Source: Sphingomonas jatrophae
GTDB taxonomy: Bacteria; Pseudomonadota; Alphaproteobacteria; Sphingomonadales; Sphingomonadaceae
Length of the DNA: 64,000 nucleotides
Direction: 5' to 3'
NCBI RefSeq assembly: GCF_900113315.1
Contig: NZ_FOZG01000001.1
Span: forward strand, 124,001 to 188,000
Positions 15,552-31,558 of this stretch are shown here, one piece after another (within the stretch, counting starts at the first letter, position 1; the number at the start of each line of letters is the position of its first letter). The position numbers and the translations under genes were made by a program. A model generated the notes under the pieces. That model did not search any database and was not told where the DNA came from. It saw only the letters and a program-made list of their open reading frames with translations.

Positions 15552-18500
15552 TTAGAAGGTGAAGCGCACGCCGACGCGGATCGAGTAGAGCGACTGGTTG
15601 ACGTAGACCTGATCGGTCGGCGTCGTGAACTCGCTCGTGCCACCCAGCGGCGAATAGCGATACTGGAGGCAAGGCTGCGCCGCAGTGGTCGCAACCGCGC
15701 CGCCCGGTGCCGCGGTGCCGGCAGGCGTCGCATTGCCGGCGGTGGTCAGGCACTGCACCTGGGTAACGGCAGCGTTGTACGGGAAGACGTACTCGCGCAG
15801 CTGACCCCACTTCTTGTTGATGAAGTTGGTGAAGTTCTCGATGTCCGCGAACACCTGGAGGCGGCTGTCGCCGAGGCCCGTCGGGATTTCCTGCGCAAGG
15901 TGCAGATCGAGGCGCGTGAACCACTTGGAGTTGAAGGCGTTACGCGGCGCAACCTTGCCGCGATACTTCTTCAGCCCCGACGCATCGATGAAGTTGTTGA
16001 GCGCCGCGCCATAAGCCGCACTGCTATACTGAACCAGCGGATCGTTCGTGCCGGTCGGCACGTACATCAGGTAGCGGTTGCCCGCCGTGCCCGTGGCCGT
16101 GCTGCGGCCGGTGACGCCGAACACTGCCGAGCGGTTCGCACCGAAATCCTGGAACGTATAGCTGTATGGACGACCGATACGGGTCTCGCCGAACAGGCCG
16201 ATCGAGGTCTTGTAATCCCCGAAGAAGGCGTGATCGAAGTTCGCGCCGTACTTGAAGAAGTACTTAACCTCGTCGTTCGACGTGCCATAGGCAACGTTGT
16301 TCGGATCGACGAACGCACCGTTGGAGTAGTTGGAGCCGGCCGTCGACGAGGTCGCCGGGGCCTGATCCTTCACGTCCTGATAGGTGAAGCTGCCGTTGAT
16401 GTTCAGGCCGAAATCCCACGACTTGTCGAAGCGGGCGACCGCGACGTAGCTGCGGCCCTTCTTCGTGTTGGTCAACAGGATGTCGGTGTTGGTGTTGGTG
16501 CTGCCGGCACCGTCGATCAGGTTCTGGTAACGCTGACGGCCATCGGGCGTCAGCGCATTGGCACCCGTCAGGATCGGCTGCGAGCGGATGTCGGTGAAGT
16601 AAACCTGATTGCGGACCTTGGAGTAGAAGAAGTCCGCACCGAACGTCCAGCCATCGCCCAGCGCACCGAAGTCGAACGTATATTCGCCCGACAGCGTGGC
16701 GCGCCACTGGGATGGCAGCTTGAAGTTCGGATCGAGGGCGTTGACCGTCGAGGCCGACGACACCGAGGCATTGCGCAGCGTGTCATTGACCGCAGCGGCG
16801 ATGCTGGTGCCCGTGACGCCGTTCAGCGCCGCATTGCCGACCGCGACGTTGCTGGTGGCACCACTGTAGGTGTCAGTGCCGACCGCCGCACGGTTGATCG
16901 AGATCGAGTTGGTCAGGACGCCCGTGTTGGAGAAGCTGTTGGAGATATAGACGTCGGGCGTGCCGCCGCCGAAGATGCCGCCGCCGCCGCGGATGCTGAG
17001 CCGCGGGGTGGGGCGCCAATCGAAGCCGACGCGCGGCTGGAAGAGATCCAGGCCGGAGATGTTGGCATTGTTGCCGCCAATGCCACGCAGATCGCCATTG
17101 ACGTAGCGGGCCGGACCGTAGCGGCCGAGGAAGGCGTTGCTGAGCGCCGGCAGCGAATCCATGCTGTAGAGATCGTAGCGCATGCCGTAGCTGACGTTCA
17201 GCGTCGGGGTCAGCTTCACGCTATCCATGATGCCGAAGGTGAAGCTCATGTAGCTGAACTTCGCGGCGGCGTCGTCCGGCACCAGCGACGGGATCGCGTT
17301 GCCATAGCCGAACGTGCTGGCACGCCGGTTCTGGAAGTCGGTGATCGAGTCGAAATAATAGTTGCCGGCGCTGTTCTGCAGGAACGAGTTGAACACGTCG
17401 ACGTGCTGCACTTCCGAGAAGATGCGCAGATCGTGATCGTTCATCGTCAGGCGCGCCTGGACGACGCCGCCCCACGTCTCGGTGGTCAGCTGGTTGGTCT
17501 GGCGCGAGCTGTCCGGACCGAAGGAGACGACGGGCGCGGTGCCCTGGCCCGTCGGAATGCCGGTGTTTTCGCAACCCGTGGCCGAGCCGCCCGACACTTC
17601 GTTCAGGCAGACGCGGAACTGCGCAAAGCCGCGGCCGAGGACCGGATCCTGAATGCGCTTGTAGTTCTTGTAGAAGCCGCGCGCTTCGGTCGAGAAGGTG
17701 TCCGACCAGTCGGAGTTGAGCTGGACGACGCCGGTGTAGAGCTCGTTGCCCTGGATGTAGGCGTTGGAAGCGAGGCCGAGGCCCGGGCTGCCGGTGGTGA
17801 TCGACGAGAAGGTGTTGTTGAGCAGGTTCTGCCCATCCTTCGCGTAGGTGCCGGTGATCGACAGGCGCTGCGTATCGGACAGGTTGGCATCAAGGCGGCC
17901 GACGACGCGGTCGTCCTTGTCGCCCAGGCTGCGCAGCACGCCGCCCGTGTCATAGCCGTAGACGCTCTGCGCGATCTGCGACACGCGATCGACCTGCGCC
18001 TGGCTCAGGTTGGGGATCGCGGTGCCGGCATTGTTGTCGACGGGGCCTTCCGGGATCGGACGGCCGCCGCGCAGGCGCTCGCCCGCGATCATGAAGAACA
18101 GCTTGTCCTTGATGATCGGGCCGGACAGCTCGGCGCCGTAATTCTCGACCTTGAAGTTCGGGATGTTCGTGCGGCCGGTGGGGATGCCGGGGCCACGCTT
18201 CGTCTCGTCGCCGACGAACTCGTCGCCAGAGCGCGCATAGAAGCCGGTGCCGTGGAACTCGTTGGTGCCGGACTTCAGCAGGACGTTGATGACGCCGCCC
18301 TGGAAGTTGCCCTCGCGCACGTCATAGGGCGCGACGCGTGCCTGGAACTGACCGATAGCATCGAACGGCACGGGCGACCGGCGCGACGGCAGACCATCCG
18401 GGTTGAGGCCGAAATTGTCGGTGATCGGCACGCCGTCGACGGTGAAGCGATTGTAGCGCGCATTCTGACCGGCGAACGAAATCGCGCGGCCGCCCGTGGG

Positions 18501-19001
18501 CGAGTCGTCAAGGCGGGCGAACGGATCGCGGCGCGCCAGATCGCGGACGTCGCGGTTGAGCGAGGCGACGTTGGCGATCTGCGCTGCGTTCAGCACGGTT
18601 GCCGGGCCCTGGCTGACCGAACGGGCATTGGGCAGTCGGGCGGCGGTAACGACCACCTCGGGCGCAGCCTCGCCACCGGCGGTGAGTTCAACCGGAAGCT
18701 GGAAGTTCTGACCGGCGACGGTCTCGATGTCGGTCACCGACGCATTGGGGAAGCCCGCAGCGTTGACGTTGACGGTGTAGCCACCACCCGCGCGCAGGCC
18801 GGTCGCGTTGAAGTTACCGCTCGCGTCCGAGGTGGTCGTGGTGCGCGTTCCGGTCGCGGCATTGAGGATCTCGATCGTCGCGCCGGCCACCGGCGCACCG
18901 TTCGCCGTCACCGTCCCCTGGATGGTGGACGTGGTTTCCTGGGCGTAGGCCGCCGAGGTGGCGAGCGCGGCGACGGCGCAGCCGATGAACAGATTCCGCA
19001 T
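15552..19001 (-). CDS. Oar-like TonB-dependent receptor with carboxypeptidase-regulatory-like domain
   Basis: 1149 residues, outer membrane. Signal peptide (MRNLFIGCAVAALATSAAYAQ), then a carboxypeptidase-D regulatory-like beta-sandwich (about 25-105, with VTANGAPVAGATIEI). A plug domain follows (about 120-240, PEVVVTAARLPNARSVSQGP and YNRFTVDGVPITDNFGLNPDG), and a large barrel that ends in the aromatic residue expected for outer membrane insertion (VGVRFTF). This architecture is typical of Oar-type receptors for large substrates such as peptides or polymers. ATG 18999-19001 is preferred to the upstream TTG at 19010 because it begins the signal peptide. The region 19002-19262 upstream is non-coding with only a weak Pho-box-like repeat. 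Confidence 0.9.
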   Translation of the reverse strand: MRNLFIGCAVAALATSAAYAQETTSTIQGTVTANGAPVAGATIEILNAATGTRTTTTSDASGNFNATGLRAGGGYTVNVNAAGFPNASVTDIETVAGQNFQLPVELTAGGEAAPEVVVTAARLPNARSVSQGPATVLNAAQIANVASLNRDVRDLARRDPFARLDDSPTGGRAISFAGQNARYNRFTVDGVPITDNFGLNPDGLPSRRSPVPFDAIGQFQARVAPYDVREGNFQGGVINVLLKSGTNEFHGTGFYARSGDEFVGDETKRGPGIPTGRTNIPNFKVENYGAELSGPIIKDKLFFMIAGERLRGGRPIPEGPVDNNAGTAIPNLSQAQVDRVSQIAQSVYGYDTGGVLRSLGDKDDRVVGRLDANLSDTQRLSITGTYAKDGQNLLNNTFSSITTGSPGLGLASNAYIQGNELYTGVVQLNSDWSDTFSTEARGFYKNYKRIQDPVLGRGFAQFRVCLNEVSGGSATGCENTGIPTGQGTAPVVSFGPDSSRQTNQLTTETWGGVVQARLTMNDHDLRIFSEVQHVDVFNSFLQNSAGNYYFDSITDFQNRRASTFGYGNAIPSLVPDDAAAKFSYMSFTFGIMDSVKLTPTLNVSYGMRYDLYSMDSLPALSNAFLGRYGPARYVNGDLRGIGGNNANISGLDLFQPRVGFDWRPTPRLSIRGGGGIFGGGTPDVYISNSFSNTGVLTNSISINRAAVGTDTYSGATSNVAVGNAALNGVTGTSIAAAVNDTLRNASVSSASTVNALDPNFKLPSQWRATLSGEYTFDFGALGDGWTFGADFFYSKVRNQVYFTDIRSQPILTGANALTPDGRQRYQNLIDGAGSTNTNTDILLTNTKKGRSYVAVARFDKSWDFGLNINGSFTYQDVKDQAPATSSTAGSNYSNGAFVDPNNVAYGTSNDEVKYFFKYGANFDHAFFGDYKTSIGLFGETRIGRPYSYTFQDFGANRSAVFGVTGRSTATGTAGNRYLMYVPTGTNDPLVQYSSAAYGAALNNFIDASGLKKYRGKVAPRNAFNSKWFTRLDLHLAQEIPTGLGDSRLQVFADIENFTNFINKKWGQLREYVFPYNAAVTQVQCLTTAGNATPAGTAAPGGAVATTAAQPCLQYRYSPLGGTSEFTTPTDQVYVNQSLYSIRVGVRFTF

Positions 19002-19262
19002 TGTTTCCAAGTCCCCTGCTTGAACCGGGTGCTTCGGCCCGATCCCGTCCGGCTCCCTTGTTCGGCAGCGCAGACAAGAACATGACCGAAATATTGCAAA
19101 ATTATTGCGACATCCGCCCTGTGGCGGCGCAGCATGTGGCGGCCCCTAGGCGAGGTGTCGCGGCCTGCCAAGCGGCCGGAAAAGAATCGTTTTTCTGTTG
19201 CTGCAATGCAGCACCGGGGCGTCTGGCGGCAGTTGCGACGGCTTCAACCGGCTCTTGCGCCT

Positions 19263-19295
19263 ATGTCATCCAGGTGTAACACTTCTCGCTAGAGT
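19263..19295 (+). promoter_or_regulatory. Pho-box-like promoter of the small TPR protein
   Basis: ATGTCAT at 19263-19269 and GTGTAAC at 19274-19280 form a direct repeat with an 11-base period, 12 of 14 positions matching the consensus CTGTCAT-N4-CTGTMAY. TAGAGT at 19290-19295, about 10 bases downstream, fits a -10 element, the spacing seen at PhoB-activated promoters that lack a normal -35. The start codon follows at 19323. Confidence 0.5.
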
Positions 19296-19322
19296 AGGAA
19301 GTTTTGAGTCGAGGAGATGGTC

Positions 19323-19679
19323 ATGCGGAAGGGCTTGGGAACAATTTTCGGTTCGTGTCTTGTTCTCCTCACCGGCGCCGCGGTCGCGCAGCCGGCGGAG
19401 GACTATGCGCCTGGCGCCCTCGCGCTCAGCGCGATGGAACGCCAGGACTGGGCCGCGGCGGAACGCGCGCTGACCAGCGGATCGGCCAAGGATGCGGGCC
19501 AGCTGATCAACCTGGGCGAGGTCTATTACCGGAGCGGTCGCCCGACCCAGGCCGCGGCTGCCTGGCGCGCGGCCGCAGAGGCCAAGCCCGTGCTGGTCTA
19601 TACGCGGGACGGCCGTGTCGTCTCCACCGCCGATCTGGCGCGCGAGGCTCTGGCGCGGCGGGAGCTGGGGGGGCGCTGA
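19323..19679 (+). CDS. Small exported TPR-like protein
   Basis: 118 residues with a signal peptide (MRKGLGTIFGSCLVLLTGAAVAQ). A short helical-repeat region follows (ALSAMERQDWAAAERALTSGSAKDAGQLINLGEVYYRSGRPTQAAAAWRAAAEA), about two TPR-like units. GAGGAG at 19311-19316 sets the start at ATG 19323 rather than the ATG at 19317 that abuts it. It opens the T2SS-associated block and is followed 53 bases later by gspO. Probably a periplasmic scaffold; a role in secretion is inferred only from position. Confidence 0.75.
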   Translation: MRKGLGTIFGSCLVLLTGAAVAQPAEDYAPGALALSAMERQDWAAAERALTSGSAKDAGQLINLGEVYYRSGRPTQAAAAWRAAAEAKPVLVYTRDGRVVSTADLAREALARRELGGR

Positions 19680-19732: not shown

Positions 19733-20497
19733 ATGGCCCTGCACCCGCTTTCCCCTCTCGGCGCCCTGCTCGGGGCGGTGCTCGGCCTGATCGTCGGCAG
19801 CTTCCTCGCGACCGTCGCGCGGAGGGCGGGGGAGGGGCGATCCGCGATGCGCGGGCGCTCCGCCTGCGACCGATGTGACGCGACCCTGCGGGCGGCCGAG
19901 CTGGTGCCGGTCGTCAGCTGGGCGTTGCAGCGGGGGCGCTGCCGGCGGTGCGGCGTGCGCATCGATCCGATCCACCCGGCCGTGGAGCTTGCCGCGGCGC
20001 TGGCTGGCGCGCTGGCGCTCGGCGTTTCGCCTGATGCCGTGGGCATCAGCGGCGCGGTGTTCGGCTGGGGCCTGATCCTGCTTGCCGCGCTCGACCTGCG
20101 CCATTTCTGGCTGCCCAATCGGGGGACGCTGCCGCTCGCCGTGCTGGGCCTGGGCGCGAGTGCTGCGGGCGGGGTGGGATTGACCGACCGGCTGATCGGG
20201 CTGGCTGTCGGCTATGCCGGGCTGGAGGCGGTGCGTCTGCTTTACGCGCGGGTGCGCGGGCGCGCGGGGCTGGGTGGGGGCGATCCCAAGCTGTTCGGTG
20301 CGATCGGCGCATGGCTCGGCTGGGCGGCGCTGCCGGGCGTGCTGCTCGGTGCCGGACTGTTGGGGCTTGGCGTGGCGCTCGTCCTGCGGGTGCGGGGACA
20401 TGCCGTGGGAGCGACGACGCGGCTGCCCTTCGGCGCGCTGCTGGCGCCCGCTGGCTTTGCGGCCTGGCTGTTCGCAGCCGCAGCAACCCGGCTGTGA
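19733..20497 (+). CDS. gspO: Prepilin peptidase (type IV leader peptidase/N-methyltransferase)
   Basis: 254 residues, polytopic inner membrane aspartyl protease. The cytoplasmic zinc loop carries CDRC (45-48) and CRRC (70-73). The two catalytic aspartates are D121 in LDLRHFWLP and D184 in GGGDPK. It cleaves the G-F junction of the GspG/H/I/J pseudopilins encoded further on and N-methylates the new terminus. It is separated from the main gsp operon by two genes and has its own short leader after the TPR gene, with which it is probably co-transcribed. Confidence 0.92.
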   Translation: MALHPLSPLGALLGAVLGLIVGSFLATVARRAGEGRSAMRGRSACDRCDATLRAAELVPVVSWALQRGRCRRCGVRIDPIHPAVELAAALAGALALGVSPDAVGISGAVFGWGLILLAALDLRHFWLPNRGTLPLAVLGLGASAAGGVGLTDRLIGLAVGYAGLEAVRLLYARVRGRAGLGGGDPKLFGAIGAWLGWAALPGVLLGAGLLGLGVALVLRVRGHAVGATTRLPFGALLAPAGFAAWLFAAAATRL

Positions 20498-20559
20498 CCG
20501 TCACGAAACCGTAACGGCATAGTCCCCGACATGTCACATCATTCAAACGCAGCCGTCAC
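20498..20559 (+). promoter_or_regulatory. Array of Pho-box-like repeats upstream of the lipoprotein gene
   Basis: CCGTCAC (20498) and CCGTAAC (20509) form one 11-base-period pair with 11 of 14 consensus matches. ATGTCAC (20531) and CCGTCAC (20553) lie exactly 33 and 55 bases from the first, so all four fall on the same helical face; the units in between are degenerate. The array fills the gap between gspO and the lipoprotein gene, which starts at 20628. PhoB control is inferred; single 11/14 matches also occur by chance in this window. Confidence 0.42.
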
Positions 20560-20627: not shown

Positions 20628-22238
20628 ATGCGCCTTCGTTCCGTCCTGCTCATGGGCAGCGCTGCCATGATGCTGTCGCTGGCAGGTTGCGGTGCCGACG
20701 ACGTCGCCTCGCCCGGCGAGGGAACGATCGTCACCCCGCCGCCGACGAGCACCTCCTCCGGCGGCACGACGACGCCGCCCCCCAGCGGCAGCACCGGCGG
20801 CGGCGCGGCCTCGGCCTGCCCGTCGGGCACGATCGATCGCAACACGATCACCAACTCGACCAGCAACACGACATGGCGCAACTGCGAGATCTCCGGCCGC
20901 ATCACCGCGGACACGACGATCCAGAAGCTGCCGGGCGTGATCTACTCGCTCTCCGGCCCGGTCAACGTCGGCACCGACGTTGGCGGTGACGGCAATGCGG
21001 CGGGCGGCCAGCGCGTGACGCTGACGGTTCAGCCGGGCGTGGTGATCTTCGCCAGCGCAGGCAATGACTATCTGATCGTCAATCGTGGCTCGCGCATCAA
21101 CGCGGTGGGCACCGCCAATTCGCCGATCATCTTCACCGCGCGCCAGAATGTCGAGGGCAGCGCGACCGACAGCAGCCAGGGCCTGTGGGGCGGCGTCATC
21201 CTGCTCGGCCGTGCGCCCATCTCCAACTGCCAGACGGCGGGCACCGCCGGCGGCAGCGCGGGCTGCCAGCAGATCGTTGAGGGCACGACCAGCTCGCTCT
21301 ATGGCGGCAACGTGCCGACCGACAACAGCGGCACGATGCAATATGTGCAGATCCGCTATTCGGGTTTCTCCATCGCGCCCGGCAACGAGCTGCAAGGCCT
21401 GACCACGGGCGGCGTTGGCTCGGCCACGACGCTCGACCACATCCAGATCCACAACAGCTCGGATGACGGCGTCGAGTTCTTCGGCGGCCGTCAGAATGCG
21501 AAGTACCTCGTGTTCACCGGCACCGACGATGACGCGATCGACACCGATCTCGGCTATCGCGGCACGATCCAGTTCGTGATCGCCGTCCAGCGCGACGCCT
21601 CGAACGGCGATTCGATGATCGAGGCGGACTCCGCCGATGGCGCCGAGGAGGCGACCCCGCGGCAATATACCCGCGTGTCGAACGCCACGTTCGTGCAGCG
21701 CTCCACCGCGCAGGGCCTCAACGCCATCCTGCTCCGCGGCGGCACCGATTATGCGCTGCTAAACAGCATCGTCGTGGGCCCGTCGAGCTGCATCGACATC
21801 GACAATGGCGGCGGCTCCGATCCGACGCCTTACACGACCCGCGACGCCGATGCATCGAAGCAGGAGATGGGCCCGCCCGTCTTCCGCTCGGTCGTCCTGT
21901 CCTGCACCACCGCGCCGTTCCGTGCGGACGGCAACGAGGCGATCGTCGCAACGATCTTCGGCACCGGCACCAACAATAACAACTCGACCTACACGTCGAC
22001 GCTGACCAACGTGTTCGTCAACGGCGCCAACGAGACGGCGGTGGCCGCGACCGATCCGACCACGTTCAACGCGGACATGATCGGCGGCGAGAACACCAGC
22101 GCGCCGAACCGCCTGACCGCCGTCAGCTACATCGGTGCGGTGCGGAACAGCACCGACACCTGGTATGCGCCGTGGGCGTGCAGCCCGGGCTATGTCAGCT
22201 TCGGCACCGCGGCCTGCACCGCCATCCCGACCAACTGA
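20628..22238 (+). CDS. Surface or secreted lipoprotein with a beta-helix-like domain
   Basis: 536 residues. The lipoprotein signal ends in LAGC with Cys21 as lipid site. A low-complexity Thr/Pro/Gly/Ser linker (about 30-60) is followed by a long Thr/Asn/Gly/Asp-rich region with recurring short strands and turns (GTANSPIIFTARQNV, LDHIQIHNSSDDGVEFFGG, TDDDAIDTDLGYRGTIQFV) that resembles a parallel beta-helix. The composition, rich in Asn, Thr and small residues, suits an extracellular protein. It is followed by a TonB receptor and then the T2SS operon, so it is a good candidate T2SS substrate or receptor partner. No catalytic motif recognised. Confidence 0.75.
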   Translation: MRLRSVLLMGSAAMMLSLAGCGADDVASPGEGTIVTPPPTSTSSGGTTTPPPSGSTGGGAASACPSGTIDRNTITNSTSNTTWRNCEISGRITADTTIQKLPGVIYSLSGPVNVGTDVGGDGNAAGGQRVTLTVQPGVVIFASAGNDYLIVNRGSRINAVGTANSPIIFTARQNVEGSATDSSQGLWGGVILLGRAPISNCQTAGTAGGSAGCQQIVEGTTSSLYGGNVPTDNSGTMQYVQIRYSGFSIAPGNELQGLTTGGVGSATTLDHIQIHNSSDDGVEFFGGRQNAKYLVFTGTDDDAIDTDLGYRGTIQFVIAVQRDASNGDSMIEADSADGAEEATPRQYTRVSNATFVQRSTAQGLNAILLRGGTDYALLNSIVVGPSSCIDIDNGGGSDPTPYTTRDADASKQEMGPPVFRSVVLSCTTAPFRADGNEAIVATIFGTGTNNNNSTYTSTLTNVFVNGANETAVAATDPTTFNADMIGGENTSAPNRLTAVSYIGAVRNSTDTWYAPWACSPGYVSFGTAACTAIPTN

Positions 22239-22245
22239 TGCGCGC

Positions 22246-22276
22246 CAGCCGCCGCGGCCACGTGTCGCGGCGGCTG
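22246..22276 (+). other. Intercistronic stem-loop between lipoprotein and TonB receptor genes
   Basis: Perfect 11-base stem (CAGCCGCCGCG / CGCGGCGGCTG) with a 9-base loop and no U-run. In an operon such a hairpin can protect the 3' end of the upstream message or partly stop transcription, giving more lipoprotein than receptor. Confidence 0.55.
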
Positions 22277-22308
22277 ACTAACCGGACGACGGCAGGGGGC
22301 CGAACATC

Positions 22309-25053
22309 ATGAAACCGATCGCTTTCGGGAGCGCGCTGCTCCTGTCCACTGCCCTCTGCGCGCCTGCGGCCTGGGCGCAATCCGGCCCGAGCGCCGGCCA
22401 GGTGAGCCCGCCGTCCAGCCCGGCAGGTGGCGTCACGCCGCCGGGCACCGAGGCGGGCGCCCCCGCCAGCAGCGACACGGCCGAAGAGCAGGTCGAGATC
22501 TCGACCCCGGGTGCCGACGCGACGACCGAGATCGTCGTCACCGGCCGCTATATCCCGCAGCCGGTGCGCTCCACGCCGCAGGTTGTCTCCGTCCTGTCGA
22601 CGGCCGACATCGCACGCACGGGCGAGGGCGACATCGCCGGCGCGCTCGGCCGCCTGCCAGGCCTGTCGGTCGTCGGCAACGGCTTCGTCTATGTCCGTGG
22701 CCTGGGCGACCGTTACTCGCTCGCGCTGCTGAACGGCCTCCAGCTGCCGTCGCCCGAGCCGCTGCGCCGCGCCATCCCGCTCGACATCTTCCCGACCAGC
22801 GTGGTCGCGAGCGCCGTCGTGCAGAAGAGCTATTCGGCCAACTTCCCCGGCGAGTTCGGCGGCGGTGTCGTCAACCTGACGACGCCTGCGGTGCCGGCCG
22901 AGAATTTCCTCAACATTGGCATCGGCGGTTCGGTCGACGTCGAGACCACCGCCAAGCTCGGCTACACCTATGAGGGTGGCGATCTCGACTGGCTGGGCTT
23001 CGACGACGGCACACGCAAGGTGCCCGCCGGCATCCGCGCCGCGACGACCGGTGGCGGCCGGCCGCTGACCACCGCCAATTACACGGCGCGCCAGCTGCAG
23101 GACATCACCGCCAGCCTGAACAATGCCGAGACGACGCTGCTCCAGCGCAACCGGGACATCCCGGCGAACTTCTCGGCGGACATGAATTTCGGCTTCCACA
23201 AGGAAGTGGGCAGCGATGCCGAGTTCGGCATCTTCGGCTCGGCCAGCTACGGCAACACCTTCCGCACGCGCGACATCCGCCAGCAGGTATCGACCAGCGT
23301 CGACCTGTCGTCGCTCGTCTCCGACTTCAAGACGATCATCACCGATCAGCGGACCGTCGTCAGCGGACTGCTGGGCATGGGCCTGAACTTCGGCGACAAC
23401 AAGATCCGCTGGACCAACCTGTTCATCCGCGACACGGTAAAGCAGGGGCGCCTGAGCGCCGGCTATGACACCAGCGTGACCGGCGCCGATCCGGTGCCCA
23501 ATCCGGATTTCACCGGCACGCCGCCGATCCTCGTCCAGAACACCTTCTGGTTCGCGCGGCAGCTGTTCGACACGCAGGCGGTGGGCGAGTTCAAGTTCGA
23601 CGACCTGTCGGTGGACGTGCGCGGCGGCTATGCCAACACCAAGCGCAAATCGCCCTACGAGCGCGAATTCCTCTACGTCTACAACCCGACCGTCCGCGAT
23701 TACACCAACAACCTGTCGGGCGGCGGCGGTTCGGCGAGCGTCGCCTTCTCCGACCTGAACGAGGATGCGTATAGCGGCGGCATCGACTTCGGCTACAAGC
23801 TGCCGACCGAGCGGCCGATCACGCTGTCCGCCGGCTATGCGTTCAACAAGAATGAGCGCACCTCGTCGCGTTACGACTTCGCCTATCGTACCGTCTCCGG
23901 CGCGTCGCTGCCGAGCGCGGTGGCGCAGGAACGGCCGGATTATCTGACGTCGGACTACAACGTCTACACCTACGGCGTGTCGCTGGTGGACCAGTCCGGC
24001 TTTGCCGGCAGCGCCGCCTATGACGCATCGCTGCGCGTGCATGCGGGCTACGGCCAGATCATCGCGGAGCCGACCGACGGTGTGCGGATCACCGCGGGCG
24101 TCCGTTACGAGGATGCGCGCCAAATTGTGACGCCGCTCGGCGACGACCTGCCGACGCGGCTGAGCAAGAGCTACTGGCTGCCCGCGGGCACGATCACCTG
24201 GAACTTCATGGACGATGCGCAGCTGCGCCTGTCCGCCTCCAAGACGATCGCGCGGCCGCAATTCCGTGAGCTGGCGCGGCAGATCTTCCAGGATTTCGAG
24301 TCCGACCGTTCGTTCACCGGCAACCCGCTGCTGACGGACACGCAGCTCTACAATGGCGAAGCGCGGCTGGAATATTATCCTGGCCGCAACGAGATCCTGT
24401 CGATCGGCGGCTTCTACAAGCGGCTGAAGAACCCGATCGAGCAGCTGGCCTTCGTGATCGGCGGCGGCGGCTTGCGCACCAGCTTCTCCAACGCGCCCGA
24501 GGCGGACCTCTATGGCGGCGAGGTGGAAGCGACCAAGTTCTTCACGATCGGTGAGAGCGGCTTCTTCACCTCGCGCCGCCTGCGCGTGTCGGCCAATTAC
24601 ACCTACACGCAATCGAAGGTGAAGGCGGACGACTCGCTGGTGATCAACCCGATCGACCTCAATCCGATCGCGGCCAGCACCCTGTTCCGTAACGGATCGC
24701 CGCTGACCGGCCAGTCGGACCATCTGGCGAACGGCCAGATCGGCTTCGAATCCAGCGATCACCTGTCGCAGCAGACGCTGCTGGTGAATTACGCGTCCCC
24801 GCGCGTCACCAATCGCGGCCCGGTGCAGGACGGCCGCACGCCGGACATCAAGGAGAAGCCCGGCATCACGCTCGACCTGGTCCTGCGCGAGGAAGCACAG
24901 TTCCTCGGCCTGCCCGTCGAGTTCAAGGCGGAAGGGCGCAACCTGCTCAACCGGAAGTACAAGGAATATCAGGCGAACGGCGAGCGGCGCGTGGATGTGA
25001 ACCGCTACCAGCTCGGCCGGGTCTTCTCGCTGTCGGCGACGGCGAAGTTCTGA
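22309..25053 (+). CDS. TonB-dependent receptor paired with the lipoprotein
   Basis: 914 residues. Signal peptide ending AWAQ, then a roughly 55-residue Pro/Gly/Ser/Ala-rich periplasmic segment. A TonB box-like EIVVTGRYIPQPV (about 76-88) precedes the plug (about 90-200, with VRGLGDRYSLALLNGLQLPSPEPLRRAIPLDIFPTSVVASAVVQKSYSANFPGEFGGG). The 22-strand barrel region ends in the aromatic-terminated SLSATAKF. The plug is of the type found in sphingomonad and Caulobacter receptors for carbohydrates or unknown ligands. It lies 70 bases after the lipoprotein gene and 130 bases before gspC; co-transcription with the lipoprotein is likely. Ligand unknown. Confidence 0.9.
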   Translation: MKPIAFGSALLLSTALCAPAAWAQSGPSAGQVSPPSSPAGGVTPPGTEAGAPASSDTAEEQVEISTPGADATTEIVVTGRYIPQPVRSTPQVVSVLSTADIARTGEGDIAGALGRLPGLSVVGNGFVYVRGLGDRYSLALLNGLQLPSPEPLRRAIPLDIFPTSVVASAVVQKSYSANFPGEFGGGVVNLTTPAVPAENFLNIGIGGSVDVETTAKLGYTYEGGDLDWLGFDDGTRKVPAGIRAATTGGGRPLTTANYTARQLQDITASLNNAETTLLQRNRDIPANFSADMNFGFHKEVGSDAEFGIFGSASYGNTFRTRDIRQQVSTSVDLSSLVSDFKTIITDQRTVVSGLLGMGLNFGDNKIRWTNLFIRDTVKQGRLSAGYDTSVTGADPVPNPDFTGTPPILVQNTFWFARQLFDTQAVGEFKFDDLSVDVRGGYANTKRKSPYEREFLYVYNPTVRDYTNNLSGGGGSASVAFSDLNEDAYSGGIDFGYKLPTERPITLSAGYAFNKNERTSSRYDFAYRTVSGASLPSAVAQERPDYLTSDYNVYTYGVSLVDQSGFAGSAAYDASLRVHAGYGQIIAEPTDGVRITAGVRYEDARQIVTPLGDDLPTRLSKSYWLPAGTITWNFMDDAQLRLSASKTIARPQFRELARQIFQDFESDRSFTGNPLLTDTQLYNGEARLEYYPGRNEILSIGGFYKRLKNPIEQLAFVIGGGGLRTSFSNAPEADLYGGEVEATKFFTIGESGFFTSRRLRVSANYTYTQSKVKADDSLVINPIDLNPIAASTLFRNGSPLTGQSDHLANGQIGFESSDHLSQQTLLVNYASPRVTNRGPVQDGRTPDIKEKPGITLDLVLREEAQFLGLPVEFKAEGRNLLNRKYKEYQANGERRVDVNRYQLGRVFSLSATAKF

Positions 25054-25059
25054 AGGCTG

Positions 25060-25092
25060 CACCCGTCGTCGCCCGGGCGGCGATGACGGGTG
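25060..25092 (+). terminator. Terminator-like hairpin after the TonB receptor gene
   Basis: A 14-base stem with one G-U pair (CACCCGTCGTCGCC / GGCGATGACGGGTG) and a 5-base loop begins 7 bases after the receptor stop. No U-run follows, so it may be a partial or Rho-assisted stop. It separates the receptor from the Pho box and gspC. Confidence 0.5.
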
Positions 25093-25113
25093 TGCGACGG
25101 CGGCGCGGCGCCA

Positions 25114-25152
25114 TTGTCATAAAAGTCCTGTCCGCTGTCATGCAGCTGTCAT
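25114..25152 (+). promoter_or_regulatory. Pho box upstream of the type II secretion operon
   Basis: CTGTCAT at 25135-25141 and again at 25146-25152 with a 4-base spacer is a full match to the PhoB consensus repeats. A third copy, TTGTCAT, lies at 25114-25120, 21 bases upstream of the first. The gspC start codon is 33 bases downstream. This predicts PhoB-dependent expression of the whole gsp operon; no clear -10 is visible at the expected distance. Confidence 0.7.
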
Positions 25153-25185: not shown

Positions 25186-25998
25186 ATGCGTTTAACTCTT
25201 GATCCGCGGGCGCGGGCGCTCCTCGCGCGCGTGCCGCGGACCCGGCTGGTCGCGGTGCCGGAGCTTCTGCTGCTGGGGGTGCTTGCCCTCCAGGCGGCGC
25301 GGCTGGCGTGGGCGGTGGTGACACCGGTCGGGCCGGTGGGCGACTGGCGGCCGGTGCTGCCCGTCGAAGGTGCGGCCGTGCGGCCGGACGGCTTCGATCC
25401 CTTCTTCCGCCTGGTCGGGGAGACCGCACCGGCAGTGGTCACCTCGGCCAATCTCAAGCTGTTCGGCGTGCGTGCCGATATGGTCAGCGGGCGCGGCGCG
25501 GCGATCCTGCAATTGCCGGACGGCACGCAGGCGAGCTTCGTGGTGGGCGACGAGGTGCTGCCGGGCGTCCGGCTGGACGCGGTGCGGCTGGACGGCGTGA
25601 CGCTGCTGCGCGGCGGTGCGCGCGAGCAATTGTTCCTCGACCAGTCGGTCGCCCCTTCGCCAACCGTCGTTGCGGCACCGCCCGCGGGGGCGCCGCCGAT
25701 CGTCAGTACGGTGGCCCCGCCGCCCTCATCCGCGCCGATCCAGAGCGCGGTGTCGGCCAGCCCGCGCGTGCAGGACGGGCGGATCACCGGCTTCACGCTC
25801 GCGCCGAACGGCGATGGCGCCGCCTTCCGCGCGGCGGGGCTGGAGCCGGGCGACGTGCTGCTGCGCGTCAACGGCCAGCCGGTGGGCGAGGGCGGCGCGG
25901 GATCGCTGCCGGGGCTACTGGCTGCCGGTAACGCCACGATCGAGGTGGATCGCGGCGGCCGCACCGTCACCCTCTCCATCCCGGCGCCGGCGCGATGA
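25186..25998 (+). CDS. gspC: Type II secretion system inner membrane protein GspC
   Basis: 270 residues. A short cytoplasmic N-terminus precedes one membrane helix (about 21-45, LVAVPELLLLGVLALQAARLAWAVV). The periplasmic homology region follows (about 70-150, with LKLFGVRADMVSGRGAAILQLPDGTQASFVVGDEV), then an Ala/Pro linker and a C-terminal PDZ domain (about 190-268, GDVLLRVNGQPVGEG). GspC connects the inner membrane platform to the secretin; the PDZ domain takes part in substrate recognition. First gene of the operon, overlapping gspD by ATGA. Confidence 0.9.
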   Translation: MRLTLDPRARALLARVPRTRLVAVPELLLLGVLALQAARLAWAVVTPVGPVGDWRPVLPVEGAAVRPDGFDPFFRLVGETAPAVVTSANLKLFGVRADMVSGRGAAILQLPDGTQASFVVGDEVLPGVRLDAVRLDGVTLLRGGAREQLFLDQSVAPSPTVVAAPPAGAPPIVSTVAPPPSSAPIQSAVSASPRVQDGRITGFTLAPNGDGAAFRAAGLEPGDVLLRVNGQPVGEGGAGSLPGLLAAGNATIEVDRGGRTVTLSIPAPAR

Positions 25999-28304
25999 GG
26001 CGCGCCATCCTTCTCGCCGGCCTGCTCGCCGCGGCGAGCCCGCTCATGGCGCAGCAGGTGCTGAACCTTCGCGATGCCGACATTCGCGCGTTCATCCAGG
26101 ATGCCAGCCGCGTCACCGGCCGCACCTTCATCATCGACCCGCAGGTGCAGGGCAAGGTATCGGTGGTGAGCGACCGGCCGCTCAGCCGCACCGAATATCT
26201 CGAAGTGTTCCTCTCGACGCTGCGCGCCAACGGCTATGTCGCGGTGCCGGCGGCCGGCGGCGCGTTCCGCGTGCAACCGGCGAACGGCGCGGCCGCGGCG
26301 GCGGGGCGCGTCGGGACGGGACGAGCGAGCGCGAACAGCTTTGCGACCGAGGTGTTCCGCCTCCAGACGATCGATGCGCAGAGCGCGGTGGACACGATCC
26401 GCCCGCTGGTCGGCCCCGGCGGTTCGGTGACGGCGAGCCGGACGGGCAATGCCGTCGTCGTCGCGGACTATGCCGATAACCTCCGCCGCATCCGCGACGT
26501 GCTGTCGCGCATCGACCGCGACAGTGCGGCGACGCGCGTGGTGCCGCTGCGCAATGCCGGCGCGCGCGAGATTGCAGGGTCGCTCCAGCAGCTGGTCGGC
26601 ACGAGCGGACAGGGCGGCCCGGCGGCGTCGGTGGTGGCGATCGACAGCAGCAACGCCATCGCGCTCCGGGGCGATTCCTCCACCGTCGCGCGGCTGGCGC
26701 GGATCGCGGAGGAGCTGGACCGGCGGGCAGAGAATGGTGCGGAGATCCGCGTCATCTTCCTGCGCCATGCCGAGGCGGAGAAGCTGGTGCCGGTGCTTCA
26801 GCAACTGGTCGGCCAGGCGGTGACGGCGACACCCGCCGCCGTCGGCGGATCGGGGGCAGGGCCGGCCGGCCCGGGGCAGGCTTCGGGCGCGGGCGCGTCG
26901 CAGCCGGTATCGACGCCGTCGGTCAGTGTCTCCACGGGCGGATCGCCGCAGCGGGGCACGCCGGTGATTGCGCGCTACGAGGGCGCCAATGCGGTGATCA
27001 TCGCTGCGCCGTCCGACGTGCAGCGGACGCTGGGCGAGGTGGTCCGCCAGCTGGATACGCGCCGTGAGCAGGTGCTGGTCGAGGCGATCATCGTCGAGAT
27101 CGGCGATGTCGCGGCCAAGGCGCTGGGCGTGCAATATCTGCTGGGCGGCCTGCCGGGATCGGGCGTGCCCTTCGCCGCGACCAATTATTCCAACGCCGCG
27201 CCCAACCTGCTGACCATCGCCGGCGCGATCGGCGCGCGCGAGCTGGCGACGACGACGACGGTGGTGAACGGCACCACCGTCACCACGACGACCAACAACC
27301 AGCTGTCGGACAATCTGGCGCAGCAGGCGGTCAACTCGATCCTGGGTGCTGGCGGATCGTTCGCGGGCTTTGCCGGCAAGCTCGGATCGAACGCCATCTT
27401 CGGCGCGATCATCAACGCGGTGAAATCGGACAACAAGTCCAACCTCCTGTCCACGCCGTCGATCATGACGCTGGACAATCAGGAGGCGAAGATCCTCGTC
27501 GGCCAGGAAATCCCGATCACGACCGGGCAGGCGCTCTCCAACAATTTCGACAATGCCTTCCGCACCGTGCAGCGCGAGAATGTCGGCATCAGCCTGGAGG
27601 TGAAACCGCAGATCAATGCGGGCGGCGCGATCAACCTCGCGATCAAGCAGGAAGTGTCGTCCATCGCCGGGCCGGTCGGCGGCGAGTTCAACGACCTGAT
27701 CCTGAACAAGCGCCAGATCGAGACGGTGGTGACGGTGGACGATGGCGAGATCGTCGCGCTGGGCGGCCTGCTCGACGACAATGAGCGGCGGACGATCGAG
27801 AAGATCCCGTTCCTCGGCGACATTCCGGGCCTCGGCGTGCTGTTCCGGTCGAAGGCGCGGAGCCGTTCCAAGACGAACCTGATGGTGTTCATCCGCCCGA
27901 CGATCCTGCGCACCAGCGCCGACAGCCGCGAGGTGGCGGAGCGGCGCTACGGCTATGCCCGCGCACAGCAATTGCAGCAGCGGCCCGACGTCGAGCCGAG
28001 CCTCGACGAGATGGTGCGCGACTATATGGGTGCAGCCCCGCCGGTGCCCGCGGTGCCGCTGCCCGGATCGACTCCGCCCGCCGTCGCGCCCGCGCCGGTC
28101 GTGGCGGGGCCGCAGGTGGTGACGCCGGGCGTCGTGCCGGTGCCCGCTTTGCCCGATGCGGGAACGATCCAGGTGCCGGTGCTGCCCTCCACGCCGCCCG
28201 CGCAGGCGGTGCCGCAGCAGCAGATCATCGTGCCGCGCGTCTCCACGTCGAGCGAGCGGGTGACGCTGCCGAGTGCGACGCCCGCGCCGGCGCGGCGACG
28301 GTGA
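25995..28304 (+). CDS. gspD: Type II secretion system secretin GspD
   Basis: 769 residues. Signal peptide (to about 20), N0 domain (VLNLRDADIRAFIQDASRVTGRTFIIDPQVQGKVSVVS), KH-like N1-N3 repeats (about 105-370, separated by Gly/Ala/Ser linkers), then the secretin barrel (about 440-640) with the family signature IPFLGDIPGLGVLFRS near 604-619. A Pro/Ala/Val-rich C-terminal tail of about 90 residues follows. No separate pilotin gene is visible in this operon, so the route of outer membrane targeting is open. Forms the outer membrane channel of the T2SS. Confidence 0.95.
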   Translation: MRRAILLAGLLAAASPLMAQQVLNLRDADIRAFIQDASRVTGRTFIIDPQVQGKVSVVSDRPLSRTEYLEVFLSTLRANGYVAVPAAGGAFRVQPANGAAAAAGRVGTGRASANSFATEVFRLQTIDAQSAVDTIRPLVGPGGSVTASRTGNAVVVADYADNLRRIRDVLSRIDRDSAATRVVPLRNAGAREIAGSLQQLVGTSGQGGPAASVVAIDSSNAIALRGDSSTVARLARIAEELDRRAENGAEIRVIFLRHAEAEKLVPVLQQLVGQAVTATPAAVGGSGAGPAGPGQASGAGASQPVSTPSVSVSTGGSPQRGTPVIARYEGANAVIIAAPSDVQRTLGEVVRQLDTRREQVLVEAIIVEIGDVAAKALGVQYLLGGLPGSGVPFAATNYSNAAPNLLTIAGAIGARELATTTTVVNGTTVTTTTNNQLSDNLAQQAVNSILGAGGSFAGFAGKLGSNAIFGAIINAVKSDNKSNLLSTPSIMTLDNQEAKILVGQEIPITTGQALSNNFDNAFRTVQRENVGISLEVKPQINAGGAINLAIKQEVSSIAGPVGGEFNDLILNKRQIETVVTVDDGEIVALGGLLDDNERRTIEKIPFLGDIPGLGVLFRSKARSRSKTNLMVFIRPTILRTSADSREVAERRYGYARAQQLQQRPDVEPSLDEMVRDYMGAAPPVPAVPLPGSTPPAVAPAPVVAGPQVVTPGVVPVPALPDAGTIQVPVLPSTPPAQAVPQQQIIVPRVSTSSERVTLPSATPAPARRR

Positions 28305-28308
28305 CGCC

Positions 28309-29844
28309 ATGAGGATCGCGCGCGGCGACGAGGCGCTGATCGTGCCGCAGCCGGGCGATCCGGCGCCGCCGCCGCCGGCTCTCGCGCCTGCTGCCATCCC
28401 CTACGCCTTCGCGCGCCGCTTCGGCGTGGCGCTGATCGAGGAGGGCGAGGGGCTGAGCGTCGCGCTGCGCGAGGGTGAGAGCGCCAAGCCGCTGATCGAG
28501 CTCAGGCGCCTGTTCGGCCGTCCGTTCGCGGTGGAGCGGGTGGCGGCGGAGCGGTTCGACCGCATCCTGTCCGAACGCTATGCCGTCGATGGGCGCGCGA
28601 CCGCGGACACGCTGGGGCTGGCGGACGATCTCTCGCTGCTGGCGACCGACCTGCCGACCGCGGACGACCTGCTCGACACCGCCGACGATGCCCCCGCCAT
28701 CCGCCTGATCAACGGCATCATCGCTGATGCGGCGCGCCACGGCGTGTCGGACATCCATGTCGAGCCCTATGAGAGCGGCCTCGTCGTGCGGATGCGGATG
28801 GACGGCGTGCTGCGCGAGACATTGCGCATGCCGGCGCATGTCGCGCCCGTCGTGGTCAGCCGGATCAAGGTGATGGCGCGGCTGGACATTGCCGAGCGGC
28901 GCCTGCCGCAGGACGGGCGCATCGGCCTGACGCTGGGCGGCAAACTGCTCGACGTGCGCGTCTCGACGCTGCCGAGCCGCGCGGGCGAGCGGGTGGTGCT
29001 GCGCATCCTCGACAAGGAGAATGCGGGCATCACGCTCGACGGGCTGGGCATGCCGGCGGCGGTGGAGCGGATGTTCCGTACGGCCATGGCGGAACCGAAC
29101 GGCATCGTCCTCGTCACCGGGCCAACGGGCTCCGGCAAGACGACCAGCCTTTATGCGGGCCTGCGCCTGCTGAACGACGGCAGCCGCAACATCCTGACGG
29201 TCGAAGATCCGGTCGAATATGCGGTGGAGGGCGTCGGCCAGACGCAGGTCAACGCCAAAGTCGGCCTCGATTTCGCAACGGGCCTGCGCGCCATCCTGCG
29301 GCAGGATCCGGACGTCGTGATGGTGGGCGAGATCCGCGACCGCGAGACGGCCGACATCGCGGTGCAGGCGTCGCTGACGGGCCATCTCGTCCTCTCCACC
29401 GTCCACACCAACGACGCGATCGGCGCGATCACGCGGCTGCGCGACATGAAGGTGGAGCCATTCCTGCTCGCCTCCACGCTCCGCGGCGTGATCGCGCAGC
29501 GGCTGGTGCGGCGGTTGTGCCCGCATTGCCGGACGGCGGAGCCGGCGGACGCGGCGACGCGCGACCTGCTCGGGCTGGAGGAAGGCGCGGTCGTCTACCA
29601 CGCGCATGGCTGCGAGCGGTGCGGCAATGGCGGCTATCGCGGGCGCGTCGGCGTGTTCGAGGCGGTGCGCGTCGACGACACGATCCGCCGGCTGATCAAC
29701 GCGGGTGCCGACGAGAGCCAGATCGCCGCCCACGCCTTTGCAACGACGCCGACGCTGACCCAGGCGGTGCGGCAGCTGGTGCAGGATGGCGTGACCACGC
29801 CTGAGGAGGCGGTGCGCGTGGCGCGGGCGGACGCCGATGGCTGA
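28309..29844 (+). CDS. gspE: Type II secretion ATPase GspE
   Basis: 511 residues, cytoplasmic hexameric ATPase that drives pseudopilus assembly. Walker A GPTGSGKTT (about 270-278), Asp box region around TVEDPVEYAVEGVGQTQVN, Walker B ILRQDPDVVMVGEIRD, and His box SLTGHLVLSTVHTNDA. A zinc-binding element with CPHC (404-407) and CERC (435-438) sits before the C-terminal domain, as in most GspE proteins. The N-terminal domain that contacts GspL is present but short. ATG 28309 (MRIARGDE) is chosen, 4 bases after the gspD stop. Confidence 0.95.
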   Translation: MRIARGDEALIVPQPGDPAPPPPALAPAAIPYAFARRFGVALIEEGEGLSVALREGESAKPLIELRRLFGRPFAVERVAAERFDRILSERYAVDGRATADTLGLADDLSLLATDLPTADDLLDTADDAPAIRLINGIIADAARHGVSDIHVEPYESGLVVRMRMDGVLRETLRMPAHVAPVVVSRIKVMARLDIAERRLPQDGRIGLTLGGKLLDVRVSTLPSRAGERVVLRILDKENAGITLDGLGMPAAVERMFRTAMAEPNGIVLVTGPTGSGKTTSLYAGLRLLNDGSRNILTVEDPVEYAVEGVGQTQVNAKVGLDFATGLRAILRQDPDVVMVGEIRDRETADIAVQASLTGHLVLSTVHTNDAIGAITRLRDMKVEPFLLASTLRGVIAQRLVRRLCPHCRTAEPADAATRDLLGLEEGAVVYHAHGCERCGNGGYRGRVGVFEAVRVDDTIRRLINAGADESQIAAHAFATTPTLTQAVRQLVQDGVTTPEEAVRVARADADG

Positions 29845-29873
29845 GGCCCTGCGGTGCGGCGGGCGGCGGCGCC

Positions 29874-31091
29874 GTGGCTGACTATGACTATCTGGCGCTG
29901 GACGTCGCCGGGCGCGAGCGGCGCGGCCAGGTGCGCGGCGAGAGCGTCGAGGAGGCGCGGACCGCGCTCGCCCGGCGCAAGCTCTATCCGGTGCGCGTCG
30001 AGCCGGCGCGCTCGGCGGGCGAGCCGCTGGTCGCGCGCGGGCTGCACTGGCGGCGGACGCTGAGTGCCAAGCAGCTGACCTTGTTCACCCGCCAGCTGGC
30101 GACTTTGGGGCAGGTCACGCCGCTGGAAGAGGCGCTGCGCACCATTGCCCGGCAGACGGAGAATGCGACCGCGCGGGCGATCCTAAACCGCGTCCATGCC
30201 GGCGTGGTCGAAGGGCGGCGCCTGTCCGATGCGATGGCGCGCGAGGAAGCGAGCTTCCCGCCGCTTTACCGGGCGATGGTGTCGGCAGGCGAGGCATCGG
30301 GCACGCTGCCGGCGATCCTCGAACGGCTGGCCAATCTGCTGGAGCGGCAGGCGCAGGTCCGCTCCAAGGTGTTCACCGCGCTCGCTTACCCGGCGGTGCT
30401 GAGCGTCGTCGCCATCGCGGTCGTGATCGCGCTGATGCTGTTCGTGGTGCCCAAGGTGGTCGAGCAGTTCGACGATGTCGGGCAGACGCTGCCGCTGATC
30501 ACGCGCATCGTCATCGGCCTGTCCGCCTTCCTGCGCGATTGGGGCTGGGCGCTGGCGCTGGTGGTGGCGGGAGCGCTGTTTGCGGGCTGGCGGATGCTGA
30601 AGGATGAGCGGCTGCGGCTGCGTTTCGACCGGCGACTGCTGCGCCTGCCGCTGTTCGGCCGGCTGATCCGCGATCTCAACGCCGCGCGGCTCGCCCGCAC
30701 GCTGGCGACGATGGTGGCGAGCCGGCTGCCGCTGATGGAGGGGCTGAGCCTGACCACGGCGACGGTGCGCAACCGCGCGCTCAGGCAGGCATCGCTCGAT
30801 CTCGTCGAGTCGATCCGCGGCGGGGGCAGCCTGTCGGCGGCGCTGCGGCGCACCGCCCTGTTCCCGCCGCTGCTCGTCACCATGGCGGCATCGGGTGAGG
30901 CGAGCGGGCGGCTGGACACGATGCTGGAGCGCGCCGCCGACTATATGGACCGCGAGTTCGACGCCTTTACCGCGACCGCGCTCAGCCTGTTGGAACCCGC
31001 CATCATCGTCATCATGGGCGTGGCGGTGGCGTTCATCGTTCTCTCGATCCTGCTGCCGATCCTGCAGCTCGACACCCTTGCCGGAGCCTGA
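29874..31091 (+). CDS. gspF: Type II secretion inner membrane platform protein GspF
   Basis: 405 residues from a GTG at 29874. It has two GspF/PilC-type domains (about 70-190 and 275-395) with the signature FPPLYRAMVSAGEASGTLPAILERLA and its repeat FPPLLVTMAASGEASGRLDTMLERAADYMDREFD. Three membrane segments (about 170-195, 220-245, 375-400) match the family. It forms the platform core on which GspE acts. The 29-base gap after gspE is the largest inside the operon. Confidence 0.93.
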   Translation: MADYDYLALDVAGRERRGQVRGESVEEARTALARRKLYPVRVEPARSAGEPLVARGLHWRRTLSAKQLTLFTRQLATLGQVTPLEEALRTIARQTENATARAILNRVHAGVVEGRRLSDAMAREEASFPPLYRAMVSAGEASGTLPAILERLANLLERQAQVRSKVFTALAYPAVLSVVAIAVVIALMLFVVPKVVEQFDDVGQTLPLITRIVIGLSAFLRDWGWALALVVAGALFAGWRMLKDERLRLRFDRRLLRLPLFGRLIRDLNAARLARTLATMVASRLPLMEGLSLTTATVRNRALRQASLDLVESIRGGGSLSAALRRTALFPPLLVTMAASGEASGRLDTMLERAADYMDREFDAFTATALSLLEPAIIVIMGVAVAFIVLSILLPILQLDTLAGA

Positions 31092-31097
31092 AGAGTG

Positions 31098-31556
31098 ATG
31101 CGTCTGTTCCGCCGCCATGCCCGACCGATCCGCCCGAAGCGGCCGCAGGAGGAAGGGTTCACGCTGATCGAGCTGATGGTCGTGATCGTCATCCTCGGCC
31201 TGCTGACCACGATCGTCGTCATCAACGTGCTGCCCAGCCAGGACAAGGCGCGCGTGGAGAAGGCCAAGGCCGACGTGGCGCTGATCGAGCAGGGGCTGGA
31301 AATGTACCGCCTCGACAATCTCGATTACCCGACCGACGCACAGGGCCTCGCCGCGCTGACGAGCCCGCCCGCGGGCGCGCAGGCGGGTCGCTACCGCGCG
31401 GGCGGCTATATCAAGCGGCTGCCCGAGGATCCGTGGGGGCGGCCGTACAACTACGCGAAGCCCGGCCGACACGGCACGTTCGACGTGTGGAGCCACGGCG
31501 CGGACGGGCGCGAGGGCGGCGAGGGCGACGACGCCGACGTCGGCAACTGGAAGTAG
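31098..31556 (+). CDS. gspG: Major pseudopilin GspG
   Basis: 152 residues from ATG 31098; the GTG directly before it (31095) is an equal alternative. A basic leader ends in the prepilin cleavage site EEG|FTLIELMVVIVILGLL with Glu at +5. The C-terminal domain has the GspG hallmarks LDNLDYPTDAQGLAALTSPP, YIKRLPEDPWGRPYNY and SHGADGREGGEGDDADVGNW, the last being the calcium-binding loop. It builds the pseudopilus shaft after processing by GspO. Confidence 0.96.
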   Translation: MRLFRRHARPIRPKRPQEEGFTLIELMVVIVILGLLTTIVVINVLPSQDKARVEKAKADVALIEQGLEMYRLDNLDYPTDAQGLAALTSPPAGAQAGRYRAGGYIKRLPEDPWGRPYNYAKPGRHGTFDVWSHGADGREGGEGDDADVGNWK

Positions 31557-31558
31557 GC

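Follow-up and report, generated by a model that had tools for sequence, protein, structure and literature searches.

A predicted PhoB-controlled lipoprotein and TonB receptor pair beside the type II secretion genes of Sphingomonas jatrophae

Does the lipoprotein encoded among the type II secretion system (T2SS) genes of Sphingomonas jatrophae belong to the secretion system or to the TonB-dependent receptor encoded next to it? We addressed this question for a stretch of 64,000 nucleotides of contig NZ_FOZG01000001.1 (positions 124,001 to 188,000, forward strand), called the window here, whose own numbering is used throughout. Our answer is that the two proteins, orthologues of the Caulobacter ElpS/Cc0171 pair, probably constitute an outer-membrane unit under PhoB control that binds a phosphorus-containing ligand and takes it up, and that in this lineage the regulon probably includes the T2SS as well.

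The lipoprotein and receptor genes (20628-22238 and 22309-25053, both on the plus strand) were verified as open reading frames. The gap between them measures 70 bases (22239-22308), and they are flanked by gspO upstream and gspC downstream, so the adjacency described in the initial annotation is borne out by reading frames and domain matches. The features of the locus are as follows.

15552..19010, minus strand: Oar-like TonB receptor, 1152 aa (CarboxypepD_reg, OMP_b-brl_4)
19082..19099, minus strand: predicted Pho box 5' of the Oar-like receptor gene (15.3 bits)
19263..19280, plus strand: predicted Pho box 5' of the TPR gene (12.1 bits)
19317..19679, plus strand: small TPR-like protein, probably secreted; ATG at 19317 or 19323
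19733..20497, plus strand: gspO, prepilin peptidase (A24 peptidase), by family match
20498..20515, plus strand: predicted Pho box of elpS, weak (9/14 to the consensus; 12.6 bits)
20628..22238, plus strand: elpS orthologue, lipoprotein of 536 aa, predicted right-handed beta-helix
20688..20690, plus strand: codon for Cys21, the cysteine of the LAGC lipobox; the conserved stretch GADDVASPGEG comes next in the alignment
20727..20813, plus strand: Thr/Pro/Gly/Ser linker, about residues 34-62, mostly of low model confidence
22309..25053, plus strand: TonB-dependent receptor, Cc0171 orthologue, 914 aa (Plug and barrel)
25059..25093, plus strand: strong GC hairpin in the receptor-gspC interval (z -2.43)
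25135..25152, plus strand: Pho box, perfect match to the consensus, 33 bases 5' of the gspC start
25186..25998, plus strand: gspC (T2SSC), by domain match, downstream of the receptor gene
25186..36231, plus strand: T2SS genes, of which gspC, D, E, F, G, I, J, K, L and N were identified

Within the last of these stretches gspM matched weakly, below its cut-off. The hairpin is followed by no U-run and is therefore not a canonical terminator. The product of the TPR gene matched Pfam TPR_2 at 3.9e-05, below the family cut-off, and the Oar-like receptor may be another receptor at this locus that responds to phosphate. The genome (4.06 Mb) holds a single copy of the lipoprotein gene.

The closest described counterpart is found in Caulobacter. 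The lipoprotein was 45% identical, over its whole length, to the reading frame in the same position of Caulobacter vibrioides DSM 9893, which likewise has a lipobox and a linker, and the receptor was 46% identical to the adjacent gene; both identities refer to this strain and not to the C. crescentus CB15 protein. The pair in DSM 9893 is followed by gspC, D, E and F. Residue 38 of its lipoprotein is Asn, in agreement with the cleavage of ElpS reported before Asn38 (PMC2996285). As in C. crescentus, the window holds a lipobox lipoprotein of this sequence family, then a TonB receptor directly downstream, then gspC. Judged by sequence, the window pair is orthologous to Caulobacter ElpS and Cc0171.

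In C. crescentus, ElpS (CC0170) and Cc0171 lie beside gspC-N (Le Blastier 2010, PMC2996285). There gspO lies downstream of gspN in the opposite orientation (PMC2996285), whereas in the window it lies upstream and is preceded by the small TPR gene. A similar gene order was named for Xanthomonas campestris, Sphingomonas alaskensis and Hyphomonas neptunium, and the authors read the co-occurrence of elpS and cc0171 homologues as probably reflecting a functional interaction (PMC2996285). The organisation and the co-occurrence were thus published in 2010, and the pair itself was already known (PMC2996285). According to the same report, ElpS is induced under phosphate starvation, and stalk extracts of cells grown in low phosphate contain both ElpS and Cc0171 (PMC2996285). 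To reach the surface ElpS does not need the T2SS, the route being left unnamed in the paper, and it is later released in a T2SS-dependent manner, probably via a secreted protease; in gsp mutants ElpS is retained at the surface and its released form disappears (PMC2996285). The initial annotation had cited Caulobacter as a precedent for lipoprotein cargo of the T2SS; the precedent is not one of cargo in that sense, surface display being T2SS-independent and only release T2SS-dependent (PMC2996285).

The lipoprotein matched no family in Pfam (E ≤ 0.01) or NCBIfam (E ≤ 0.1) and no sequence in the PDB (E ≤ 1), and a PDB sequence search with its profile returned one match only, at E 0.3. A Pfam scan of 21 relatives yielded eight families with one member each (E between 0.009 and 0.055); Beta_helix was one of them (E 0.026). 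The structure of the lipoprotein alone was modelled from 21 sequences, and the mature domain is predicted to be a right-handed parallel beta-helix (pTM 0.83, mean pLDDT 78.2). Most of the body was confident, and residues 1-57 fell under a pLDDT of 50. A beta-helix-like lipoprotein with a Thr/Pro/Gly linker had been proposed from the sequence, and both features stood, the linker as a stretch also rich in Ser. With VIA-align the model matched a phage tailspike (Z 22.8, rmsd 3.1, 278 aligned), alginate epimerase/lyase (Z 21.8) and NosD (Z 20.6); Foldseek returned nothing at E ≤ 0.001. The match list consists mostly of phage tailspikes and polysaccharide enzymes, and the fold therefore gives no pointer to phosphate. 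Invariant residues in the 21-row alignment include D279, D280, E283, D301, D302, D305, D307, D328 and E332; these conserved Asp/Glu of the alignment may mark a candidate binding surface.

An alternative to ligand capture is that ElpS is an enzyme or an enzyme activator (a beta-helix hydrolase or lyase, or a phosphatase helper) that frees phosphorus from polymers, the receptor importing the product. Polysaccharide lyases, epimerases and polygalacturonases make up, with phage tailspikes, much of the match list, and the conserved Asp/Glu residues also speak for this alternative. In Caulobacter, overexpression of elpS raised phosphatase activity in the supernatant, an effect hinting at some function different from ligand capture (PMC2996285), and relatives in Flavobacterium were modelled as polygalacturonase-like (PMC8115612). 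However, neither refolded ElpS nor immunoprecipitated extracellular ElpS had phosphatase activity in the assays reported (PMC2996285), no Pfam enzyme family was matched, and a common fold proves no function. We judge an enzymatic role unlikely, though the least unlikely of the alternatives, and prefer capture of a ligand.

Several other features of the lipoprotein family were observed. In alphaproteobacterial members a strongly conserved stretch follows the lipid cysteine, approximately CG-x-x-[DE]-[IV]-x-SPG (20688 onward in the window), and members from other classes often have CGGDIN at this cysteine. Surface-sorting signals behind the lipid cysteine are known in Bacteroidota, and by analogy the conserved residues may be such a signal. 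Five of the 21 aligned lipoproteins, all from Sphingomonas relatives (L042 8554-10200, L044, L051, L060 and L061), carry a Trp/Cys module between lipobox and beta-helix and have no usual C-terminal end; in other lipoproteins this module is terminal, and the order of modules in the five looks like a circular permutation in sequence. Many lipoproteins from other families of the order (L173-L199) are about 900-1000 aa long with the domain in two tandem copies, as are many from other classes (e.g., L214, L215 and L222-L225). A natural fusion of lipoprotein and receptor was looked for in two long frames (G133 and G143) and rejected: both contain the lipoprotein only, one being extended by a run of N. 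Named records with close relatives of the lipoprotein were mostly from sphingomonads.

The receptor is of ordinary build. It matched Pfam Plug (5.7e-11) and TonB_dep_Rec_b-barrel (5.1e-22); neither STN nor CarboxypepD_reg was among its Pfam matches, and no SusC family was among its NCBIfam matches. Its model was good for the barrel and poor for the plug. BtuB entries stood at the top of its structural matches, within ties, and BtuB/BtuG entries were present; with Foldseek, PfeA ranked first and TbpA/TbpB entries were also listed. In one draft genome (L066, 10228-13016) the receptor stretch contained four stops in the frame tried, owing to either frameshifts or a pseudogene.

We compared the pair with other known systems. 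SusC/SusD, including the phosphate-induced PusC/PusD (PMC8115612), shares the idea of a surface lipoprotein with a cognate TonB receptor. The initial annotation had drawn this likeness while noting that the families differ. It stands as a working analogy, and the difference stands too: the lipoprotein has no SusD domain, membership of SusD having been rejected on the Pfam and NCBIfam searches above, and the receptor has no CarboxypepD_reg before the plug. BtuB/BtuG of Bacteroides is like the window pair in having a non-SusD lipoprotein on a TonB receptor, although the fold of BtuG and its ligand (vitamin B12) differ. Flavobacterium johnsoniae encodes the lipoproteins FI and FII beside TonB receptors induced by low phosphate (Fjoh_3857 and Fjoh_0545); these lipoproteins show modest similarity to that of Caulobacter (PMC8115612). 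They belong to another phylum, their receptors differ from that of the window by an N-terminal pf13715 domain (CarbopepD_reg_2), and no T2SS link was seen in the available text of that study (PMC8115612).

Next, we computed how far the two genes occur together. Among 197 genomes of the order (Sphingomonadales), each at least 90% complete, the lipoprotein was found in 134 (E ≤ 1e-10), and the receptor profile (E ≤ 1e-60) was found in exactly the same 134. Loci were fetched for 132 of these genomes (G013 and G084 had no listed position). The receptor gene was the next gene downstream on the same strand in 130 loci, with 74-358 bases between alignment ends, and in the other two the contig ended first. 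Outside the order we analysed 36 loci from 35 different genomes; in wider samples the lipoprotein was detected in 9/337 genomes of the class (five within the order) and 52/348 of the phylum (18 within the order). The receptor gene was next and downstream in 31 of the 36 loci and upstream in three (L216, L220 and L218, the last with a second lipoprotein-like frame between); in L217, a second copy, it was not adjacent, and L213 was cut by the contig end. Counting other classes only, the receptor was adjacent in 21 of 22 loci. A Bacteroidales contig also carried the adjacent pair, with identities of 37% and 34% across roughly 235 residues. The arrangement is not due to chance. As the genome sets are identical and the adjacency does not depend on a T2SS, we take the lipoprotein's partner to be the receptor; the dedicated pair suspected at the outset is supported.

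Such one-to-one co-occurrence and adjacency would also be expected if the receptor displayed or exported the lipoprotein, as its route or helper to the outer face, and were not, or not only, an importer. The T2SS-independent crossing of the outer membrane by Caulobacter ElpS, for which the paper gives no route, would fit this (PMC2996285). Against it, the plug and barrel of the receptor are of the usual kind. A precedent on one side is Oar, a TonB receptor needed for protease secretion in Myxococcus, and on the other BtuG and TbpB, surface lipoproteins that sit on receptors without being exported by them. We consider a display role unlikely, slightly more so than an enzymatic one, and a combined role, in which the receptor is the T2SS-independent route of the lipoprotein and afterwards also imports what it binds, more doubtful still. 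A receptor that imports what the lipoprotein captures remains our preferred reading.

The T2SS was a far less constant companion. The N0 domain of GspD was detected in 100 of the 197 genomes, namely 83/134 with the pair and 17/63 without it; as a control, it was found in 2/14 named genomes (E. coli and Caulobacter vibrioides). The 134 pair genomes divided into 65 with gspD adjoining the pair, 18 with it elsewhere and 51 with none detected. In this split G001, G013 and G084 were counted as linked, since each has its receptor gene and gspD on one contig; G001 counts as unlinked in the locus, Pho-box and TPR counts. The best matches to the whole GspD of the window in the 51 genomes were at E 1.3e-25 or weaker, as expected from paralogous secretins; the assembly of one of these genomes (G078) is fragmented, and a T2SS of strongly diverged sequence could escape detection. 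On a tree of 130 receptors (FastTree, with a long-branch warning and the root not inferred), GspD presence needed 5 changes and linkage 13. All 28 rows from other families were linked, which makes loss of the T2SS from the locus the simpler story. All counts give close relatives full weight. Outside the order, gspC or gspD lay within the fetched stretch in 11/14 loci from other families of the same class and in 0/22 loci of other classes, a count that covers the fetched stretch only. The T2SS thus looks like an optional, lineage-specific companion of the pair. Against the refuting condition set in the initial annotation the outcome is divided: the genomes with the lipoprotein but no detected GspD (51/134) are a minority and not the main part, and none is without the receptor. 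That the lipoprotein is T2SS cargo and the receptor a mere neighbour, the first part of which had been proposed initially, is nevertheless very improbable: it draws on the linkage in 65 genomes of the order and 11 loci beyond it and on the Pho boxes common to gspC and the lipoprotein gene in the window's family, but the lipoprotein occurs in 51/134 pair genomes without detected GspD and in 22 other-class loci without gspC or gspD nearby, and its Caulobacter orthologue is displayed T2SS-independently (PMC2996285).

The unit may include a third gene. The TPR-like gene was present in 83 of 127 loci of the order (out of 132; the search profile combined 47 of the 127 with the window): 48/50 T2SS-less loci, where it diverges from the pair, 29/58 linked loci, where it runs in the same direction, and 6/19 unlinked loci. 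Beyond it, genes read from their sequences as a VirB-type T4SS were seen in 45/50 T2SS-less loci (e.g., L088 and L112); these come mostly from one tree group of 44 rows, so we read this as inherited position and not function. After the receptor, an OmpR-type response regulator was likewise read in 39/50 T2SS-less loci.

The regulation of the pair was assessed by scoring CTGTCAT-N4-CTGTCAT, which we take to be the Pho box consensus, in the 220 bases 5' of the lipoprotein gene. A box was called at 10 or more of the 14 positions, a threshold set after a first look. The 121 regions scored were the window and 120 of 131 other loci (L138 is the copy of the window and was removed as redundant); regions with no called start with a lipobox, under 200 bases upstream or N present were omitted. 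A Pho box was present in 89/121 regions: 44/50 without T2SS, 14/18 unlinked and 31/53 linked. The median was at least 10 in 28/41 genera. Controls gave 20/121 on the opposite strand, 6/119 5' of the receptor gene and 316/7156 in tiles elsewhere. None of 200 permuted heptamers reached 89/121, and other spacings gave 19-46. Coding DNA makes up most of the tile and receptor controls; for the heptamer permutations, the altered spacings and the opposite strand, scoring used the 121 regions themselves. A profile from the 89 best sites recovered the same consensus, with an A-rich spacer.

Outside the order, where 250 bases were scored at 32 of the 36 loci, a Pho box was present in 24/32 regions versus 163/2290 tiles (17/19 in other classes, 2/7 in family f59 (L200-L206) and 5/6 in other families of the class). 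L216-L218 had no lipobox start and L213 was cut by the contig end; the starts of L211, L219 and L220 look wrong and were kept in the 32, with L211 among the 24. The gspC promoter had a Pho box in 23/27 other linked loci of the window's family and in 4/25 of other families (52 linked loci, the window's own left out). The permuted heptamer maximum was 22/32 outside the order and 24/52 for gspC. Permutations in which most of the TGTCA core survives obtain high scores, so these two controls are weaker than that of the 121 regions.

In the window itself, the perfect Pho box at 25135-25152 was matched in 0/100 dinucleotide shuffles. With a profile built without the window, the gspC site ranked first, the Oar-like receptor second, elpS fourth and TPR about sixth; first-order promoter shuffles (2000 draws) gave p values of 0, 0, 0.0015 and 0.0025, respectively. 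Two further sites, the third-ranked one at 35040 within the T2SS genes and another at 63240, have scores similar to those of the elpS and TPR boxes. In the window the profile found no site in front of gspO or the receptor gene, which would fit transcription of both by read-through from upstream. Pho boxes with up to three mismatches numbered 4 in the whole window versus 2.36 expected (22/100 shuffles reach 4); this count is not above chance, and the weight rests only on position, the perfect match and conservation across genomes. A conserved promoter box is thus weak for elpS of the window and perfect for gspC. The C. crescentus T2SS belongs to the PhoB regulon (PMC11208175). These sites indicate a probable PhoB-type control of the pair that is conserved with or without the T2SS, and we infer such control in S. 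jatrophae. The weakness of the window's elpS box (9/14) and the patchiness of boxes across groups count against it.

According to the preferred reading, phosphate scarcity would lead PhoB to switch on a two-gene outer-membrane unit. The lipoprotein would carry a lipid anchor, be exposed at the cell surface and adopt a beta-helix fold. It would most likely capture a phosphorus-containing ligand (e.g., fragments of phosphorylated glycans, nucleic acids or phospholipids) and pass it to the receptor, which would import it with TonB energy. The T2SS, under its own Pho box, would most likely export enzymes producing such ligands, and possibly a protease that later sheds the lipoprotein. We infer the physical complex, the ligand and its import from the comparisons above. 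Observations in Caulobacter count against capture and import: cc0171 is constitutive, being expressed equally in rich and poor medium, intracellular phosphate was unchanged, and elpS overexpression had the phosphatase effect described above (PMC2996285). The shedding of ElpS into the medium would also be odd for a permanent receptor cap (PMC2996285).

In the literature searched we met no report of the pair's exact co-occurrence, of its persistence without T2SS in the order, of Pho boxes in genomes without the T2SS or of the TPR gene. What our comparison adds indicates Pho-box conservation, the receptor as the invariant partner and the T2SS as a lineage-specific companion. The Caulobacter reports gave the pairing, the phosphate response and the proximity to the T2SS separately, and the comparison sorts what belongs to what. 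A loosely described T2SS-associated lipoprotein would thereby become part of a testable phosphorus-import unit, and the sphingomonad T2SS would gain a predicted condition of use.
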